40,721 nt of DNA from Streptomyces boluensis (GTDB lineage Bacteria; Actinomycetota; Actinomycetes; Streptomycetales; Streptomycetaceae). The position numbers and the translations under genes were made by a program. Below the pieces are notes generated by a model. The model was not told the origin of the DNA, searched no databases, and saw nothing but the letters and a program-made list of their open reading frames with translations. The stretch lies in NCBI RefSeq assembly GCF_009908195.1, contig NZ_JAAAHS010000022.1, positions 1-40,721 on the forward strand, written 5' to 3'. Of this stretch, positions 17,805 through 31,426 are shown in pieces. Within the stretch, counting starts at the first letter, position 1. Every line of letters begins with the position of its first letter.

Positions 17805-19283
17805 TCAGGCGGTGAGCTTCGCCAGGGTCGCGTCGATGCGCTGGAGGGTGCGGTCCTTGCCCAGGATCTCCAGGGACTCGAAGAGGGGCAGGCCGATCGT
17901 GCGGCCGGTGACGGCTACGCGGACCGGGGCCTGGGCCTTGCCGAGCTTGAGGCCGTGCTCCTCGCCGGCGGCCAGGACGGCCTCCTTGAGGGACTCGGGG
18001 GAGGTCCAGTCGGCCGCTTCGAGCTTGGCGCGGGCCGTGGTGAGGAGGGCCACCGGGTCGCCCTTGCCCATCGCCTTGGTCCACGAGGCCTCGTCCTCGA
18101 CGGGCTTGTCGAGGAAGAGGAAGTCGACGTTCTCCGTGATCTCGGAGAGGACCTTGATACGGGTCTGGGCGTGCGGGGCGATGGCTTCCCAGGCGGCCTG
18201 GTCGAAGTCCTCGGGGGCCCAGTTGGCGTGCGGGGCCGTCAGCCAGGGCTCGCAGGCCGTGGCGAACGCCTTCACGTCCAGCATGCGGATGTGGTCGGCG
18301 TTGATCGCCTCGGCCTTCTTCAGGTCGAAGCGGGCCGGGTTGGCGTTGACGTCCGCGACGTCGAACTTCTCGATCATTTCCTTGATCGTGAAGACGTCCT
18401 GGTCGGCGGAGAACGACCAGCCGAGCAGCGAGAGGTAGTTGAGCAGTCCCTCGGGGAGGAAGCCGCGCTCGCGGTAGAGGTTGAGGTTGGCCTGCGGGTC
18501 GCGCTTGGAGAGCTTCTTGTTGCCCTCGCCCATCACGTACGGCAGGTGCCCGAAGGTGGGGATCTCCTTGGCGACGCCGAGCTCGATCAGCGCCTTGTAC
18601 AGGGCGATCTGGCGCGGGGTCGAGGAGAGCAGGTCCTCGCCGCGCAGGACGTGGGTGATCTCCATCAGGGCGTCGTCGACCGGGTTGACCAGGGTGTACA
18701 GCGGGGCGCCGTTGGCGCGCACGATGCCGTAGTCCGGGACGTTCTCCGGGGTGAAGGTGAGCTCGCCGCGGACCGCGTCCGTGAAGGTGATCGGCTCGTC
18801 GGGCATCCGGAAGCGGATGATGTGCGCGCGGCCCTCCGCCTCGTACGCCTGCTTCTGCTCGGCGGTGAGGGTGCGGCAGGTGCCGTCGTAACCGGAGGGC
18901 TTGCCGGCGGCGCGGGCGGCCTCGCGGCGGGCGTCCAGTTCCTCGGTGGTGCAGTAGCAGGGGTAGGCGTACCCGCCGTCGATCAGCTTCCGCGCGACGT
19001 CCTTGTAGATGTCCATGCGCTGCGACTGGCGGTACGGGGTGTGCGGGCCGCCGACCTCGGGGCCCTCGTCCCAGTCGAAGCCCAGCCAGTGGAACGAGTC
19101 GAGGAGCTGCTCGTACGACTCCTCCGAGTCGCGGGCCGCGTCCGTGTCCTCGATGCGGAAGACCAGCTGGCCGCCGGTGTGGCGGGCGTACGCCCAGTTG
19201 AAGAGGGCGGTACGGACCAGGCCCACGTGGGGGTTGCCGGTCGGGGAGGGACAGAAACGTACGCGGATGCTCGCGTTAGCCAC
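17805..19283 (-). CDS. gltX: Glutamyl-tRNA synthetase
   Basis: A 492-aa class I synthetase. The HIGH-type motif is [20 protein letters not shown] (His19 to Leu22) and the KMSKS-type motif is KKLSKRDPQ (about residue 257). VFRIEDTD and [12 protein letters not shown] are also present. Actinobacteria generally lack GlnRS, so this enzyme is expected to be non-discriminating: it charges both tRNA-Glu and tRNA-Gln with Glu, and GatCAB then amidates the latter. The GTG start lies within the end of the FAH gene (8-nt overlap), showing tight coupling. The five-tRNA cluster with both of its substrates is 0.9 kb downstream. Confidence 0.96.
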
Positions 19284-20064
19284 GCTTGATCACCTTGTTG
19301 GTGAGAGTGCCGATGCCTTGGATGGTGACGGCGACCTCGTCGCCGACGTTGAGGGGGCCGACCCCGGCCGGGGTGCCGGTCAGGATCACGTCTCCGGGGA
19401 GGAGCGTCATCGCCTCGGTGATGTTGACGATCAGGTCCTCGATGGAGTGGATCATCTGGCTCGTCGAACCGAGCTGGCGCTGCTCGCCGTTGACCGTGCA
19501 CTGGATCGCCAGGTCGCCGGTGTCCAGTTCGGTCTCGACCCAGGGGCCGATGGGGCAGGCCGTGTCGAAGCCCTTGGCCCTGGCCCACTGCTTCTCGCGG
19601 CGCTGCACGTCGCGGGCCGTGACGTCGTTGGCGCAGGTGTAGCCGAAGATGACGTCCTTGACGCGCTCGCGCGGGACCTCGCGGCACATGCGGCCGATGA
19701 CCACGGCCAGTTCGGCCTCGTGGTGCAGCTCGCTGGAGAAGGCGGGGTACTCGATGGCGTCGCCGGAGCCGATCATCGAGGTGGTCGGCTTGAGGAAGGC
19801 GAAGGGCTCCTCGGGGACCTCGTTGCCGAGTTCCCGCGCGTGGTCGGCGTAGTTGCGCCCGAAGGCGACGATCTTGTTGCCGATCACGGGGGGCAGCAGC
19901 CGGACCTTGCTGAGCGGGAGCTTGACCCCGCTCAGCTCGAAGTCGGCGTACGGAATGCCCTTGATGACGTCGAGGACGAGTTCGCCCTCCTTGCCGGGGG
20001 CGGGGTCGCCCTCGACCGCGCCGAAGGCGACATTGCCGTCGATGGAGAACCTGGCGATGCGCAC
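19276..20064 (-). CDS. Fumarylacetoacetate hydrolase (FAH) family protein
   Basis: A 262-aa protein with the FAH C-terminal fold. Metal-binding residues appear in [12 protein letters not shown] (Glu, Glu) and in [11 protein letters not shown] (Asp); [13 protein letters not shown] and [11 protein letters not shown] are also family signatures. Members hydrolyse or decarboxylate beta-diketo acids or oxaloacetate-type compounds in aromatic catabolism or metabolite repair. The specific reaction is not clear. It is fused by overlap to gltX, a conserved arrangement in actinobacteria, which points to a housekeeping rather than a catabolic role. It starts with GTG at 20064. Confidence 0.9.
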
Positions 20065-20089
20065 GGAATGCGGCCCCTCTGCTTGCGGT

Positions 20090-20112
20090 GCCTGGAGACT
20101 GACGCTCCAGGC
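20090..20112 (-). terminator. Weak hairpin between the NPRR-repeat gene and FAH gene
   Basis: GCCTGGAG (20090-20097) and CTCCAGGC (20105-20112) form an 8-bp stem with a 7-nt loop. It has no T tract, so it may be an attenuator or simply a leader structure of the FAH-gltX transcript. Confidence 0.4.
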
Positions 20113-20143
20113 TAACGCGCTCAGGGGGGTTGACCTCGCGGTG

Positions 20144-20413
20144 TTACTCCGCGGCCGCGGTGACCGGGGCGACCATCAGGACCGTGCGGCGGGGGTTGGC
20201 CGTGTTGGTCGGGAGTTCCGTGAGTTCGGACTGTTCCGGCTGCTGCGGGGCCGCCTGCAGTTCGTCGGCGTCCTTCAGGTGCGCCAGGGTGGTGCGCCGC
20301 GGGTTGGCTATGTTGCGGAACATCATCGTCGTCTTCACGGCGGCTTCGACCTCTTGGATCTCGGGGCGGGGGTTGACGGTTCGGCCATCCCTGTAAAGCG
20401 TCAGGCTAAACAT
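20144..20413 (-). CDS. Small protein with three NPR(P/R) motifs, function unknown
   Basis: An 89-aa protein beginning MFSLTLYRDGRTVNPRPEI. NPRP occurs at 14-17, NPRRTTL at 37-43 and NPRRTVL at 73-79; the last two are preceded by Ala and spaced 36 residues apart. Between them is an acidic, Gln/Pro-rich stretch (AAPQQPEQSELTELP). There is no signal peptide or membrane segment. The ATG at 20413 has GGGGA six bases upstream, better than the open-frame TTG at 20428. It lies upstream of FAH-gltX and is divergent from cvnA1. I do not recognise a family; repeated short motifs suggest peptide recognition sites or processed peptides. Confidence 0.75.
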   Translation of the reverse strand: MFSLTLYRDGRTVNPRPEIQEVEAAVKTTMMFRNIANPRRTTLAHLKDADELQAAPQQPEQSELTELPTNTANPRRTVLMVAPVTAAAE

Positions 20414-20898
20414 TTGAATTCCCCGCAAAGCCGTGAACTCCCCTGGATCTTCATGTGAGTTTGCTCACGAGCTGACGGACGTAGCGGACAGAACGGGCGA
20501 CTTACGGACGGGATCGGAAGGGACATTCCGGTACTGAAGCGCCGATTCCGCTCCCGATCATGGCGACTGGGACACCCTGCGCACGGAGGCGAGTCGCACG
20601 TAAAAGCCCGATATGGCCGGGATGGGGCTCGACATCTTGTAACCCCTCGCTCACCCGCTGTCACGGAGGTCACAGCCCGGCAGCGGGGCTTGTTGGAGAT
20701 CCGGCACTGTGCTGGAATTCCCGGGAACCGCCGCAGGTATGAACCGGCGCGCACGGGCGCAACGCAGCGTCGAGTGGCGGTGGGAAAGGGGGAGACGCGC
20801 CGGTCACTCAAGACCACCGGGGTCCTTCGGGCTCCACGACGCCGACACCGTCCCACCGTCTGTGCGGAGGGGCGCCTGGTCCAGAGGTTGCGACGCTA
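20414..20898. other. 485-bp divergent intergenic region upstream of cvnA1
   Basis: No gene of convincing quality lies here. It should carry promoters for the NPRR-repeat gene (minus) and cvnA1 (plus). A small inverted repeat GTGAG/CTCAC is at 20455-20468. A weak promoter-like pair, TTGTTG (20690-20695) and TGGAAT (20713-20718), is visible for the plus strand. Base composition is slightly lower in GC than the flanking genes. Confidence 0.4.
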
Positions 20899-24624
<3,726 letters not shown>

Positions 24625-26459: not shown

Positions 26460-29400
26460 GTGAGGCGAAGCAAGAACAGCCCCGAGCCGTCGGAACGGGG
26501 CAACTTCACCCCGCCGCAGCGAGGAGCGGCATCACCCGCACAGGCACCCGCGCCCGAACCGGCGCCCGTGTCCAGCGGTAGCAAGCTCTCGCCCCGCAAC
26601 TGGCGTGTGCCCACCAGGCTGAACGCCATTCTCCTCATACCCGTGGTCGTCGCCATCGTGATGGGCGGCTTCCAGGTCAAGGGTTCCATTGACACGTGGA
26701 ACGAGGCCGAGGACGCGGAGAAGACCGCGCTGATCGTGCGCGCCGCCGAGAACTACGGCCAGGCGCTGCTCAACGAACGTGACATATCCGCCGCCCCGCT
26801 GCTGCTCGGCAAGGGCGACGGCGGCGCGGTCGAGAAGGCCCGCGCCGCCACCGACGCCGCCAAGGCGGAGTTCGACGACGTCGTCGCGGACATGCCGGAG
26901 AAGCAGGGCCTGGAGCGCCGCCTCTCCCTCTTCAAGAAGAACGAGTCGAGCCTCGCCAACCTGCGCAAGACCGCGTACACCCGCGCCATGGACCCGGTGA
27001 AGACCGAAGAGGGTTACGTAGTCGTCCAGCACTCCCTGATGGAGTTCGCGAACGAGCTCGGCCTCGGCACCGGCAACATCACCAGCTACGGCCGGACCGT
27101 GTACGCCGTCTCCCTCGCCAAGGCCTCCGTCTCCCTGCAGCGGTCCATCGGCACCCACCTGATCGTCCGCCCCGCCTCGGATCGCGCGACCCTCGAGGCC
27201 CAGTCGACGGCGTTCAGCTCGTACGCGTACCTGGAGAAGATCGCCATCGGCGAGTACGTCTCCGCCGGTACCGAGCAGGACTACAAGGACCTGACCGGGA
27301 TGCTGCGCGGCAAGCAGACGGAGGGCAAGAAGAAGCTCGCCGCCGCCGCCCGCGAGGCCAAGGCGAACGGCCAGCGGTTCAAGGCCCCGCCGTCCCCCGA
27401 CGCGATGGTCAAGCTGATCGGCAGCGGCGCGAAGCCCGCCACGCTGCGGGCGCAGGGCGTCACCCCCGAGGCCTGGTTCGCGACCACCACCGCGAAGTTC
27501 GACGGTTACCGCGAGATCGAGACCGAGCTGATCGACAAGGCGGTCGCCGAGTCCGCGCAGATCGCGAACGACGCCGAGCGGGACGCCTACATCAACGGCG
27601 CGGTCGTACTCGGCGCCGTACTCCTCGCGTTCCTCATCGCCGGCCTCATGGCCCGCCAGATGAGCCGCAACATGCTCAAGCTGCGTACCGCCGCCTTCGG
27701 CATCGCCGAGCAGCGGCTGCCGATGCTGGTCGACCAGCTCTCGCGCACCGAGCCCGGCCGGGTCGACACCCGGGTCCAGCCCATCCCGATCAACACCCGG
27801 GACGAGATCGGCGAGGTCGCCCGCGCCTTCGACCAGGTGCACCGCGAGGCCGTCCGGCTCGCCGCCGAGCAGGCGCTGCTGCGGGGCAACGTCAACGCGA
27901 TCTTCACCAACCTGTCGCGCCGCAACCAGTCGCTGATCGAGGGCCAGTTGACCCTCATCACCGACCTGGAGAACAACGAGGCCGACCCGGACCAGCTGGA
28001 GAACCTCTTCAAGCTGGACCACCTGGCGACCCGTATGCGCCGCAACGGCGAGAACCTCCTGGTCCTCGCCGGCGAGGAGCCGGGCCGCCGCTGGGACCAG
28101 CCGGTCCCGCTGGTCGACGTGCTGCGCGCCGCCTCCTCCGAGGTGGAGCAGTACGAGCGTGTCGAGCTGTCCGGCGTCCCGGAGGCCGAGATCCACGGCC
28201 GCGCGGTCACCGACCTCGTACACCTGCTCGCCGAGCTCCTGGAGAACGCCACGTCGTTCTCCTCGCCGCAGACCAAGGTCCGCGTCACCGCGACCCGGCT
28301 GCCCGACGGCCGCGTGATGGTCGAGATCCACGACAAGGGCATCGGCCTCACCGCCGAGGACTTCGCGGACATCAACCACAAGCTGGCCAACCCGCCGACC
28401 GTGGACGCCGCGATCTCGCAGCGCATGGGCCTGTTCGTGGTCGGCCGCCTGGCCGACCGGCACAGCGTCCGGGTCCAGCTCCGCCCCTCCGGCGAGCAGG
28501 CGGGCACCACGTCCCTGGTCATGCTCCCCGACGCGATCACGCACGGCGGCGGCGGCAACGACCTGCCGGAGAGCGAGTTCACGGTCTCCCGGATCGTGCC
28601 CGAGCAGGACCAGGCGTACCAGGCCCCGCCGCTGCGCACCGCCGCCGAACTCGGCTTCGACGACAGCCGCTACGGCGAGGGCTCCCCCGCGAACGACCCG
28701 ATGGACCGCTCGCTGTTCCAGGCCGAGCGCCGCCCCGCCCTCGAGCAGCAGCCCGAGGACCGCCCGCTGTTCCGCGACGAACTCGCCCAGGAGCAGGGCT
28801 ACGAGCAGAACGCCCCTGCGTACGAGCAGAACGCCCCCGCGTACGACCAGCAGCCGCAGGCGTACGAGGAGCACAGCGGGTACGCGCAGGAGCAGGACGG
28901 GTACGCGCAGCAGCAGCACGGCGGCTTCCCGCAGCAGCCCGCGTACGACCAGGGCTACGCCCCTCAGGGCGGCGGCTACGACGAGTATCCGGAATCCGGA
29001 TATGCGGAACCTGGCTACGACGACGGGTACTCCGCAAGGCAGTCGGGCCAGGATGCGTACGCCGACTACAACGGGCAGACGCAGCAAGGTGATTGGCAGC
29101 GGCAGGCTCCCGCGACGGATGCTTTCGGTAACGCTTACGAGACAGAAGCGGAATCTGCTCCTGGCGCTTCTGAAGGCGACCGGGACCGTGTAGGTTTCGA
29201 CCGTCAGGGACCTGCGCCTTCGGCTGTGCACGAGCTGACCGACGCGGGTCTGCCGCGCCGCGGCGGTGTACCCGCGGGCAACGGCAACCAGGGCGCGGGC
29301 GGCGAGCAGTGGCCGTCGGCGTCGGGCCAGGACACTCCCCCACAGCCGCACGCGGAAGACGCGCCCGCAGGGCCCGCCGACGCTGCCGGTGCCGGCGACG

Positions 29401-29702
29401 ACTGGCGTTCCGCCAACGACGACCGCTGGCAGCGTGCCGAGCAGCTCCGGCAGCCCAGGGCGGGCGGGGTCACCACCTCGGGACTGCCGCGCCGGGTTCC
29501 CAAGGCCAACTTGGTCGAGGGCACGGCGGAGCAGACCCCGCAGGGTGGGCCGCAGATCTCCCGTGCCCCTGAGGACGTGCGTGGCAGGCTGAGCAACCTG
29601 CGGCGCGGTGTTCAGCGGGGACGCGACGCAGGAAGTGACTCGAACGGCCAGGCCACTGGTGAACACAGTGGGCCTGGTGGCAACTACAACCAGGAGCGTT
29701 AG
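26460..29702 (+). CDS. cvnA2: Conservon sensor histidine kinase-like protein CvnA2
   Basis: A 1080-aa paralogue of CvnA1. TM1 is at about 54-76, the extracellular sensor region to about 377, TM2 at about 379-401, then HAMP. LDHLATRMRRNGENLLVLAG holds candidate His521. The HATPase motifs are LAELLENATSF, IHDKGIGLT and RMGLFVVGRL. The disordered C-terminal part differs from CvnA1: 28800-29100 encodes a Tyr/Gln-rich low-complexity stretch (YEQNAPAYEQNAPAYDQQ). It ends with the same conserved peptide, GGVTTSGLPRRVPKANLV to RGRLSNLRRGVQRGRDAG. The GTG at 26460 begins VRRSKNSPEPSERGNF, the usual CvnA start, preceded by AGAGGTTG. The sensor domains diverge far more than the kinase core. Confidence 0.93.
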   Translation: MRRSKNSPEPSERGNFTPPQRGAASPAQAPAPEPAPVSSGSKLSPRNWRVPTRLNAILLIPVVVAIVMGGFQVKGSIDTWNEAEDAEKTALIVRAAENYGQALLNERDISAAPLLLGKGDGGAVEKARAATDAAKAEFDDVVADMPEKQGLERRLSLFKKNESSLANLRKTAYTRAMDPVKTEEGYVVVQHSLMEFANELGLGTGNITSYGRTVYAVSLAKASVSLQRSIGTHLIVRPASDRATLEAQSTAFSSYAYLEKIAIGEYVSAGTEQDYKDLTGMLRGKQTEGKKKLAAAAREAKANGQRFKAPPSPDAMVKLIGSGAKPATLRAQGVTPEAWFATTTAKFDGYREIETELIDKAVAESAQIANDAERDAYINGAVVLGAVLLAFLIAGLMARQMSRNMLKLRTAAFGIAEQRLPMLVDQLSRTEPGRVDTRVQPIPINTRDEIGEVARAFDQVHREAVRLAAEQALLRGNVNAIFTNLSRRNQSLIEGQLTLITDLENNEADPDQLENLFKLDHLATRMRRNGENLLVLAGEEPGRRWDQPVPLVDVLRAASSEVEQYERVELSGVPEAEIHGRAVTDLVHLLAELLENATSFSSPQTKVRVTATRLPDGRVMVEIHDKGIGLTAEDFADINHKLANPPTVDAAISQRMGLFVVGRLADRHSVRVQLRPSGEQAGTTSLVMLPDAITHGGGGNDLPESEFTVSRIVPEQDQAYQAPPLRTAAELGFDDSRYGEGSPANDPMDRSLFQAERRPALEQQPEDRPLFRDELAQEQGYEQNAPAYEQNAPAYDQQPQAYEEHSGYAQEQDGYAQQQHGGFPQQPAYDQGYAPQGGGYDEYPESGYAEPGYDDGYSARQSGQDAYADYNGQTQQGDWQRQAPATDAFGNAYETEAESAPGASEGDRDRVGFDRQGPAPSAVHELTDAGLPRRGGVPAGNGNQGAGGEQWPSASGQDTPPQPHAEDAPAGPADAAGAGDDWRSANDDRWQRAEQLRQPRAGGVTTSGLPRRVPKANLVEGTAEQTPQGGPQISRAPEDVRGRLSNLRRGVQRGRDAGSDSNGQATGEHSGPGGNYNQER

Positions 29703-29703
29703 T

Positions 29704-30126
29704 GTGAGCCCGATGAGCCAGGCGGCGCAGAACCTGAACTGGTTGATCACCAACTTCGTGGAGAACACCCCCGGTGTCTCCCACACGGTGGTGGTCTCCG
29801 CCGACGGACTCCTTCTGGCTATGTCCGAAGGGTTCCCGCGTGACCGTGCCGACCAGCTGGCGGCGGTCGCTTCCGGTCTGACCTCGCTGACGGCGGGCGC
29901 GTCCCGCATCTTCGAGGGTGGCAGCGTGAATCAGACAGTTGTGGAGATGGAGCGAGGATTTCTCTTCCTCATGTCCATCTCCGACGGTTCCTCCCTTGCC
30001 GTACTCGCGCACCCCGAAGCGGACATCGGTCTCATCGGGTACGAGATGGCACTTCTCGTCGACCGGGCGGGCACCGTGCTCACCCCCGACCTGCGGGCCG
30101 AGCTCCAGGGAAGCCTTCTCGGTTAG
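29704..30126 (+). CDS. cvnB2: Conservon roadblock/LC7 protein CvnB2
   Basis: A 140-aa roadblock/LC7 protein, with a handful of residue differences from CvnB1 (for example VENTPG for VDNTPG and HPEADIGLIG for HPECDIGLVG). Nucleotide differences are spread along the gene at synonymous sites, unlike the following tract. The GTG at 29704 has AGGAG seven bases upstream. It is one base past the cvnA2 stop. Role as for CvnB1: a likely regulator of the CvnD GTPase. Confidence 0.9.
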   Translation: MSPMSQAAQNLNWLITNFVENTPGVSHTVVVSADGLLLAMSEGFPRDRADQLAAVASGLTSLTAGASRIFEGGSVNQTVVEMERGFLFLMSISDGSSLAVLAHPEADIGLIGYEMALLVDRAGTVLTPDLRAELQGSLLG

Positions 30127-30231
30127 TTCTCAACTAGCAGACAGGCGGTGCGTTTTCGCGTCCCGGGGCCTTAAAGTTCGGGACGCGGCACCACAGTGAT
30201 GGATGCCAGGCACAGTCGGAGGAGGAAGCAC

Positions 30232-30864
30232 GTGGCAAGTGGCGCAACACCCCCAGAGGGTTCGTCTTCGGCCAACTGGTCTTACGGCCAGGACCGAGGC
30301 GGCCAGGGCGGCGAGGGTTCGCCCAACCGCTACAACTTCCCCTCCGCACCCAGCCGTCGGCAGCAGCAGCCTTACTCCCCGCCGCAGCGCGCGCAGCAGC
30401 CGTACGACCAACAGCGGCCTCCGGCGCCGCGCAGTCCGTACGAGCAGCAGCAGGCGCCGCGTATCCAGCCCGTGCAGCCGCATCAGCGTCCCGCTGAGCC
30501 GCCGCAGCCGGCCGGGGGCGCGCACAACCCGCTCGTCCGTCCGTACGCCATGACGGGCGGCCGGACCAGGCCGCGGTACCAGCTCGCCATCGAGGCGCTG
30601 GTGCACACCACGGCGCAGCCGCATCAGCTCCAGGGCCAACTGCCCGAGCACCAGCGGATCTGCAACCTGTGCCGAGAGATCAAGTCCGTCGCTGAGATCT
30701 CGGCACTGCTCTCCATCCCCCTCGGGGTGGCCCGGATTCTGGTCGCGGACCTCGCCGAGGCCGGACTCGTGGCCATCCACCAGCCCGGCGGCGACGAGAA
30801 CGCCGGCGGCCAGCCAGACGTGACACTGCTCGAAAGGGTGCTCAGTGGACTTCGAAAGCTCTAG
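30232..30864 (+). CDS. cvnC2: Conservon DUF742 protein CvnC2
   Basis: A 210-aa DUF742 protein. Its N-terminal 100 residues are a Pro/Gln/Tyr-rich, probably disordered extension (QQQPYSPPQRAQQPYDQQ) that CvnC1 lacks almost entirely. The conserved domain then runs from VRPYAMTGGRTRPRYQLAIE to the end. The GTG at 30232 follows a strong GGAGGAGG ribosome binding site (30218-30225). From 30721 the gene lies in the near-identical tract shared with cvnC1. It overlaps cvnD2 by 20 nt. Confidence 0.9.
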   Translation: MASGATPPEGSSSANWSYGQDRGGQGGEGSPNRYNFPSAPSRRQQQPYSPPQRAQQPYDQQRPPAPRSPYEQQQAPRIQPVQPHQRPAEPPQPAGGAHNPLVRPYAMTGGRTRPRYQLAIEALVHTTAQPHQLQGQLPEHQRICNLCREIKSVAEISALLSIPLGVARILVADLAEAGLVAIHQPGGDENAGGQPDVTLLERVLSGLRKL

Positions 30865-31149
30865 CGGCGGCGCAACCCGCTCCACCACCAGCGCGAAAAT
30901 CGTGGTGGCGGGCGGCTTCGGCGTGGGCAAGACCACGTTCGTCGGCGCCGTCTCGGAGATCAACCCGCTGCGCACGGAAGCAGTCATGACGTCAGCGTCG
31001 GCCGGAATCGACGACCTGACGCACACCGGCGACAAGACCACCACCACCGTCGCCATGGACTTCGGCCGCATCACCCTCGACCAGGACCTGATCCTCTACC
31101 TGTTCGGCACCCCCGGACAGGACCGCTTCTGGTTCATGTGGGACGACCT
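30721..31149 (+). repeat. Near-identical 429-bp tract, copy 2 (cvnC2-cvnD2)
   Basis: Partner of 25398-25826. The tract ends abruptly at GACGACCT: the next bases are GGTGCGGGGTGC here and CGTCCGCGGCGC in copy 1, although both encode the same residues. A second short identical patch of about 45 bp follows at 31257-31300. Confidence 0.85.
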
Positions 31150-31426
31150 GGTGCGGGGTGCGATCGGTGCGATCGTCCTTGTCGACACGCGGCGTCTGGC
31201 GGACTGTTTCCCGGCGGTGGACTACTTCGAGAACTCCGGGCTGCCGTTCGTGATCGCGCTCAACGGGTTCGAAGGGCACCAGCCCTACAACCCGGACGAG
31301 GTGCGGGAGGCTCTGCAGATCGGGCCTGACACTCCGATCATCACGACGGATGCGCGGCATCGTGCCGATGCGAAGTCGGCTCTGATCACGCTGGTCGAGC
31401 ATGCGCTCATGGCTCGCCTGCGGTAG
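30845..31426 (+). CDS. cvnD2: Conservon small GTPase CvnD2
   Basis: A 193-aa Ras-like GTPase, identical to CvnD1 except for Ile in place of Val110 and Ala in place of Gly in RHRADAK. It has the same P loop GGFGVGKTT, switch II FGTPGQDR and atypical NGFE. The downstream third uses different synonymous codons from cvnD1, so protein identity there reflects selection, whereas the upstream part is identical in DNA. Because the two GTPases are nearly the same, specificity of the two conservons must lie in CvnA, CvnC or expression. Confidence 0.92.
   Translation: MDFESSSGGATRSTTSAKIVVAGGFGVGKTTFVGAVSEINPLRTEAVMTSASAGIDDLTHTGDKTTTTVAMDFGRITLDQDLILYLFGTPGQDRFWFMWDDLVRGAIGAIVLVDTRRLADCFPAVDYFENSGLPFVIALNGFEGHQPYNPDEVREALQIGPDTPIITTDARHRADAKSALITLVEHALMARLR

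Follow-up and report, generated by a model that had tools for sequence, protein, structure and literature searches.

The gene products most comparable to the one described here are the conservon accessories CvnE and CvnF. In passages of the source papers, CvnE is a cytochrome P450 (PMC9739842), CvnF8 is an accessory protein that stimulates CvnA8, with keywords that include 'GAF domain' (PMC13343842), and the known CvnE/F accessories go with CvnA proteins that lack a sensor domain (PMC13343842). The small gene examined here likewise adjoins a conservon and its product is a possible CvnA modulator, whereas it differs in encoding a protein of only 64 aa with no predicted fold and no P450 or other recognisable domain (Pfam, E up to 10), in being divergently transcribed, and in facing a CvnA1 that carries a NIT sensor. 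A second point of comparison is the general class of bivalent short-linear-motif adaptors, which present the same motif twice on a disordered linker; the small protein has two conserved motifs and an unconserved linker, and we know of no motif that ANPRRTxL matches. The upstream DNA resembles, thirdly, the Crp (SCO3571-type) regulon in that it has a palindrome whose distance to a -10-like box is fixed. A passage of PMC10033298 quotes the S. coelicolor Crp consensus as GTG(N)6GNCAC, whereas the site GTGAGCAAACTCAC in the window (the whole 40,721-nt stretch of Streptomyces boluensis DNA analysed here) carries C where the consensus has G, is one base off, and is regarded as a candidate site. In Streptomyces coelicolor the orthologue of the small gene is, by position, most likely SCO5545, which appears in part of PMC4595836 as a 'Putative uncharacterized protein' in a target row with SCO5544 (cvnA1) and with no function given. 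Our literature search, conducted outside most subscription journals, returned nothing on SCO5545 by name beyond this 'sco5544-5545' row (PMC4595836); the NPRRT motif was met only in unrelated text, and neither small-protein titles nor the available passages of cvnA1 papers held anything on the small protein. Pfam (E up to 10) and NCBIfam likewise gave no match and PDB no solved relative, and the remark in the earlier note that no described family was known for it agrees with these searches.

Table 1. Coordinates of the small gene, its upstream elements and its immediate neighbours in the window.
Feature	Position	Strand	Basis
CRP/FNR-type palindrome GTGAGCAAACTCAC	20455..20468	minus	GTGA-N6-TCAC in 118/121 loci
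-10-like hexamer TAGCCT, inferred small-gene promoter	20403..20408	minus	conserved distance from palindrome
Leader element GTCAAC, translated as NPRP	20372..20377	minus	G[A/T]CAA[C/G] recurrence
Candidate ribosome-binding sequence GAGGTCG	20347..20353	minus	8 nt 5′ of GTG start
Two-motif small gene, 64 codons + stop	20144..20338	minus	conserved start; profile matches in 143/150 family genomes
Small-protein layout: (V/M)KTTMMFRNI-ANPRRTTL-AHLKDADEL...linker...LPTNT-ANPRRTVL-MVAP			
Motif 1 ANPRRTTL, residues 11-18	20285..20308	minus	near-invariance, pN/pS
Variable Pro/Gln/Glu-rich linker, residues 28-41	20216..20257	minus	pN/pS, spacing
Motif 2 ANPRRTVL, residues 47-54	20177..20200	minus	near-invariance, pN/pS
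cvnA1, divergent neighbour; NIT, HAMP, HATPase domains, Pro/Gln-rich tail	20899..24624	plus	Pfam; 97/97 loci
Fumarylacetoacetate hydrolase (FAH)-family gene, downstream of small gene	19276..20064	minus	Pfam PF01557

The minus-strand open frame at 20144-20413 singled out by the earlier note is present in the window, and ANPRRTTL and ANPRRTVL lie exactly 36 residues apart in its product, as was stated there. The start, however, had to be moved. Conservation of the small protein sets in at (V/M)KTTM, about ten codons 5′ of motif 1, and the window product is for this reason read as 64 aa from the conserved GTG at 20338 instead of the 89 aa proposed before. All 79 scored loci have a start codon (49 GTG, 30 ATG) at 9-13 codons 5′ of motif 1; these are 79 of the 80 best loci, L065 being left out. 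The earlier start could be placed in 54 loci, and just 12 of them have it in frame, open and spelled ATG or GTG; in 26 more its position was not placeable. The earlier start also precedes the conserved TAGCCT hexamer by 5 nt, and if this hexamer is the -10 box, that codon would be untranscribed. From the comparison of loci, the first 25 codons of the 89-aa version thus read as promoter-leader DNA, and this leader (TAGCCTGACGCTTTACA) is read in three different frames among different loci. The 'NPRP' reported at residue 14 falls outside the protein and is the leader element G[A/T]CAA[C/G] in translation. Upstream of the small gene, an AGGTC-like stretch recurs in the consensus. In the 64-aa form 7 acidic residues stand against 7 basic ones (pI 6.6), and 43 homologues (53-84 aa, median 62) have a median pI of 8.5; the term acidic, used previously for the small protein, thus describes it poorly. 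The linker is indeed rich in Gln and Pro, and in Glu as well. There is no recognisable signal peptide. When the small protein was shuffled 100,000 times, 33 of the shuffles gave a repeated 6-mer, and since two motifs also recur within one open frame in 126 of the 129 distinct loci read, the repeat is not ascribed to chance; on these comparative grounds we regard the small gene as genuine. Many family matches were flagged '1 TGA', which raised the question of readthrough or selenocysteine; this was rejected on reading 40 loci from among the matches, as wherever the flag appeared it marked the gene's own stop inside the profile C-terminus.

As judged from pN/pS over 80 sequences (window and 79 loci), purifying selection on the small protein is concentrated on the motifs, with the linker free in both length and sequence. 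The ratio is lowest, at 0.007, in motif 1 together with its AHL extension (residues 11-21), is 0.159 in motif 2 and 0.193 in the N-terminus, and rises to 0.735 in the linker and 1.0 in the C-terminus. In the same 80 sequences seven of the eight residues of motif 1 are invariant and the first Arg is present in 79, and in motif 2 the Pro is present in 79 of 80 Streptomyces-level sequences. Among the 43 diverse homologues, A, N, P and the second R are strictly invariant in both motifs, as is the T in motif 1, and conservation reaches at least 90% at the first R and L of each motif, T46, T52 and P58. The motif-to-motif spacing ranges from 30 to 54 residues in the 126 distinct loci with both motifs and is 33 in 60 of these. 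A third TANPRRT copy lies in frame in two of these loci (L026 and L140), in the promoter-leader stretch upstream of the conserved start, and on account of that position was not counted towards the protein. The source genome contains ANPRRTxL at two places only, both within the small gene, and the TANPRRT DNA pattern in 296 class genomes gave scattered matches outside the family together with one pair 347 bp apart (G316). The AlphaFold2 model has a mean pLDDT of 62.9 and a pTM of 0.16 on a 43-row alignment, such shallow alignments also being able to lower pLDDT, and contains no helix of 4 and no strand of 3 residues; the small protein is probably intrinsically disordered by this prediction. The conservation pattern is, as read across loci, that of a flexible chain bearing two linear motifs, which suggests a two-handed docking peptide for Cvn1 or another regulator. 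The proposal of the earlier note that the motifs are docking sites for a partner consequently fits best, with two motifs throughout, a free linker and no predicted fold in its favour and with binding itself putative.

The distribution of the small gene was assessed in contigs and in genomes. Out of at least 598 candidate stretches, the contig scan used the best 80 of 122 confirmed relatives, all of them titled Streptomyces, and the small gene is encoded in all 80. A 24-row profile matched 143 of 150 family genomes at E ≤ 0.01; we infer that this family is Streptomycetaceae because all 80 titled loci are Streptomyces. Among the genomes that the profile missed, G001, G018 and G029 have divergent two-motif versions at the same place, in the cvnA1-FAH gap, G020 and G038 gave gltX stretches without FAH or cvn1, and G138 is a genome that is 71% complete. 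The remaining one, G015 (L162; 98% complete), has cvn1 and no two-motif frame in its cvnA1-FAH gap. In the set of 296 class genomes all 28 family members match the profile, and outside the family 4 of 268 do so, all at E 0.006-0.01 and dismissed as marginal on E-value. In 15 genomes of the same order from two sister families, 4 of 15 gave matches at E 0.46-0.66, none better than 0.46. Plasmids and phages gave no match, and 8 stretches in viral contigs fit a peptide pattern with none confirmed as a relative. Homologues with intact frames are thus plentiful, contrary to the outcome under which the earlier note would have withdrawn the gene, and the number of motifs holds at two in one frame in 126/129 distinct loci. 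The gene is kept by nearly the whole of an antibiotic-producing family, with one motif almost frozen, and the searches made gave neither a domain model nor a paper for it.

GTGA-N6-TCAC is present within 330 nt upstream of the small-gene start in 118 of 121 loci, being absent in L143, L147 and L148, and about 119 of the 172 occurrences in the 868,040 bases of all these loci are the upstream ones, such palindromes being rare elsewhere in this DNA. The outer GTGA/TCAC follows from the search pattern itself. Most loci have G-C as the inner pair; in L144 both sides are changed (GTGACCAAAGTCAC), and 32 of 118 loci have the pair broken. The source genome has a single copy of the fuller pattern GTGASNAAAMTCACA. 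A search for a few TANNNT-type spellings 40-75 nt past the palindrome centre found a hexamer in 99 of the 118 loci, at 53 nt in 96 and at 52 nt in 3, spelled TAGCCT in 95; in the other 19 no searched spelling was present. A sigma-70 consensus scan reported no promoter, the TAGCCT hexamer included, and the -10 assignment accordingly rests on conservation. With the usual -10 geometry, the palindrome centre would lie near -65, and this is close to the position of class-I CRP sites. In 45 of 82 loci the leader element G[A/T]CAA[C/G] follows TAGCCTG at a distance of 24 nt; it is possibly a further regulator site or an RNA element. A CRP/FNR-type activator, most likely Crp, would on this arrangement switch on the small gene from about 65 bp upstream of the transcription start. 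Points against this are the one-base departure from the Crp consensus, the broken inner pair in 32 loci and the 19 loci without a hexamer of the searched spellings. In a passage of PMC10033298, purified Crp gave no band shift on the cya promoter, and the Rex site, according to part of PMC2883068, also frames GTGA...TCAC, which makes Rex a candidate rival reader of the palindrome. Parts of several papers with ChIP data place other regulators here: BldC and BldD (PMC6428758 and PMC5859096) and WblC (PMC7157823) target cvnA1 or the small-gene/cvnA1 gap, WhiB targets cvnA1/sven5239 (PMC4850268), and ScbR/ScbR2 target sco5544-5545 (PMC4595836). The small gene hence stands at a gap where several developmental regulators reportedly bind, in passages that discuss cvnA1.

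The neighbourhood of the small gene was read in 97 loci, and cvnA1 is head-to-head with it in 97/97 (80/80 of the best 80 of 122 and 17/17 further loci). This upholds the divergence described earlier, although the gap from the conserved start is 560 bp and not 485 bp. The further loci come from 20 chosen stretches, 19 of them belonging to other genera and one (G044) to the same genus; 17 of the 20 have the small gene. The placement beside a conservon and gltX also stands, but the FAH gene lies between the small gene and gltX in the window. FAH and gltX follow in 78 of the best 80 of 122 loci, the other two being short (3,048 and 5,224 bases), and within the stretch read FAH is present in 16 and gltX in 11 of the 17 further loci. 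In L175 (G044) cvnA1 is kept beside the small gene with both FAH and gltX absent. FAH and gltX are less constant neighbours than cvnA1. In four of five sister-family genomes gltX follows the best FAH match, which in the fifth lies at a contig end, and in all five no cvnA1, motif or palindrome was found in the 1.5 kb upstream of FAH; the flanks of cvnA relatives in six sister-family genomes hold no two-motif frame or palindrome, with two chance NPR-x-S matches. One palindrome is present in L185, from outside the order. In the part of L175 from 10188 onwards, where the small gene lacks FAH and gltX behind it, an opposite-strand frame looks by eye like an acyl-CoA carboxyltransferase.

The account that we favour, tentatively and at somewhat less than even confidence, is that the gene is under CRP/FNR-type control and encodes a disordered peptide with two docking sites that is linked to the Cvn1 G-protein system; as a bivalent motif protein the peptide is probably a conservon-linked accessory. 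Each ANPRRTxL motif would dock in the same kind of pocket, and the peptide would then bind a dimer, or two molecules of a single protein, and act through avidity, whether as adaptor, clamp or competitor. Its partner may, with less assurance, be a member of the actinobacterial Cvn1 system across the shared intergenic region, and Cvn1 is the first candidate because the cvnA1 pairing holds in every locus checked, even without other neighbours. The conservon link raised earlier as a possibility is supported by this synteny, and a role as regulator or substrate is a candidate one. CvnA1 promotes aerial mycelium and pigment antibiotics according to a passage of the review PMC9739842, and part of PMC2374992 gives its transcript as down about two-fold upon ppGpp synthesis. 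Its tail contains a conserved SGLPRRVPRANLV-type element (LPRR[V/T]P) in the kinase frame in 26/26 loci read. This element loosely resembles NPRRT, and as PRR is short and common it serves as a lead only; competition of the peptide with it for one pocket is possible. That the peptide is a dedicated soluble Cvn1 component, cued by cAMP/CRP, which tethers or displaces Cvn1 parts, perhaps by mimicking this tail, and so couples nutrient state to development, is unlikely. Weighing against the link to Cvn1 is the NIT sensor domain of CvnA1 itself (Pfam E 1.7e-41).

Alternatively, the partner that the motifs dock may lie outside Cvn1, such as a developmental or metabolic protein specific to the family, with cvnA1 synteny reflecting a shared developmental control region only, an explanation that is possible though we have doubts about it. 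The several regulators reported at cvnA1 or the gap are in keeping with it, and the head-to-head pairing can persist via shared promoter DNA alone. G015 retains cvn1 without the small gene, so that Cvn1 has no strict need for the small protein, and the palindrome (GTGACGAAAATCAC) is kept there between cvnA1 and FAH (L162 8689) without a two-motif gene. The NIT sensor of CvnA1 again speaks for this explanation, published CvnE/F proteins accompanying a CvnA without a sensor, whereas the finding that cvnA1 is the sole neighbour kept in all 97 loci checked, even without FAH and gltX, speaks against it. The two motifs are clean and open to point mutation, which makes the question directly testable. 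Conservon signalling is described as poorly understood in part of PMC13343842, and a peptide that binds Cvn1 would provide a handle on it.

Three further explanations were weighed. Streptomyces have many Ser/Thr kinases, and in motif 1 the Arg pair is always followed by Thr, in motif 2 almost always, which would suit Arg-Arg-Thr cores that serve as phosphosites in a two-site kinase substrate, one that binds FHA-type readers once modified. We consider this quite improbable, as the Thr is matched in its invariance by the A, N and P that precede the Arg pair, Ile replaces it in motif 2 of L146, and no such kinase is a constant neighbour in a scan that covered cvn, FAH, gltX and a HAD gene only. 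A RiPP-like precursor, from which each ANPRRTxL would be cut out as a core and released or modified, would share the small size, the repeated short segment and the variable spacer, and the earlier note had considered such cores of a processed peptide; it is very hard to credit, since copy number stays at two throughout without expanding, Cys is absent from the 43 homologues and Trp present in only 2, and the same four-gene scan saw only cvn, FAH and gltX as constant neighbours, with no modifying enzyme constant alongside. That the gene is merely a leader peptide or attenuator of FAH-gltX, its product having no role, is similarly far-fetched despite its place upstream of FAH on the same strand and a stable hairpin after its stop (z -2.9), as selection on the motifs acts at the amino-acid level with synonymous change free, there is no run of Glu codons, and L175 lacks FAH and gltX after the small gene.

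The hairpin occupies 20065-20146 on the minus strand of the window, between the small-gene stop and FAH, with an MFE of -34.2 kcal/mol, and is perhaps a T-poor terminator that gives the small gene its own transcript. On the other side of the locus, a second conservon follows cvn1 in tandem (26574-31423, plus strand). Its B, C and D products are 96, 92 and 99% identical, respectively, to their cvn1 counterparts over the matched parts, whereas the N-terminal part of the kinase is 44% identical, and this disparity suggests gene conversion or recent exchange.
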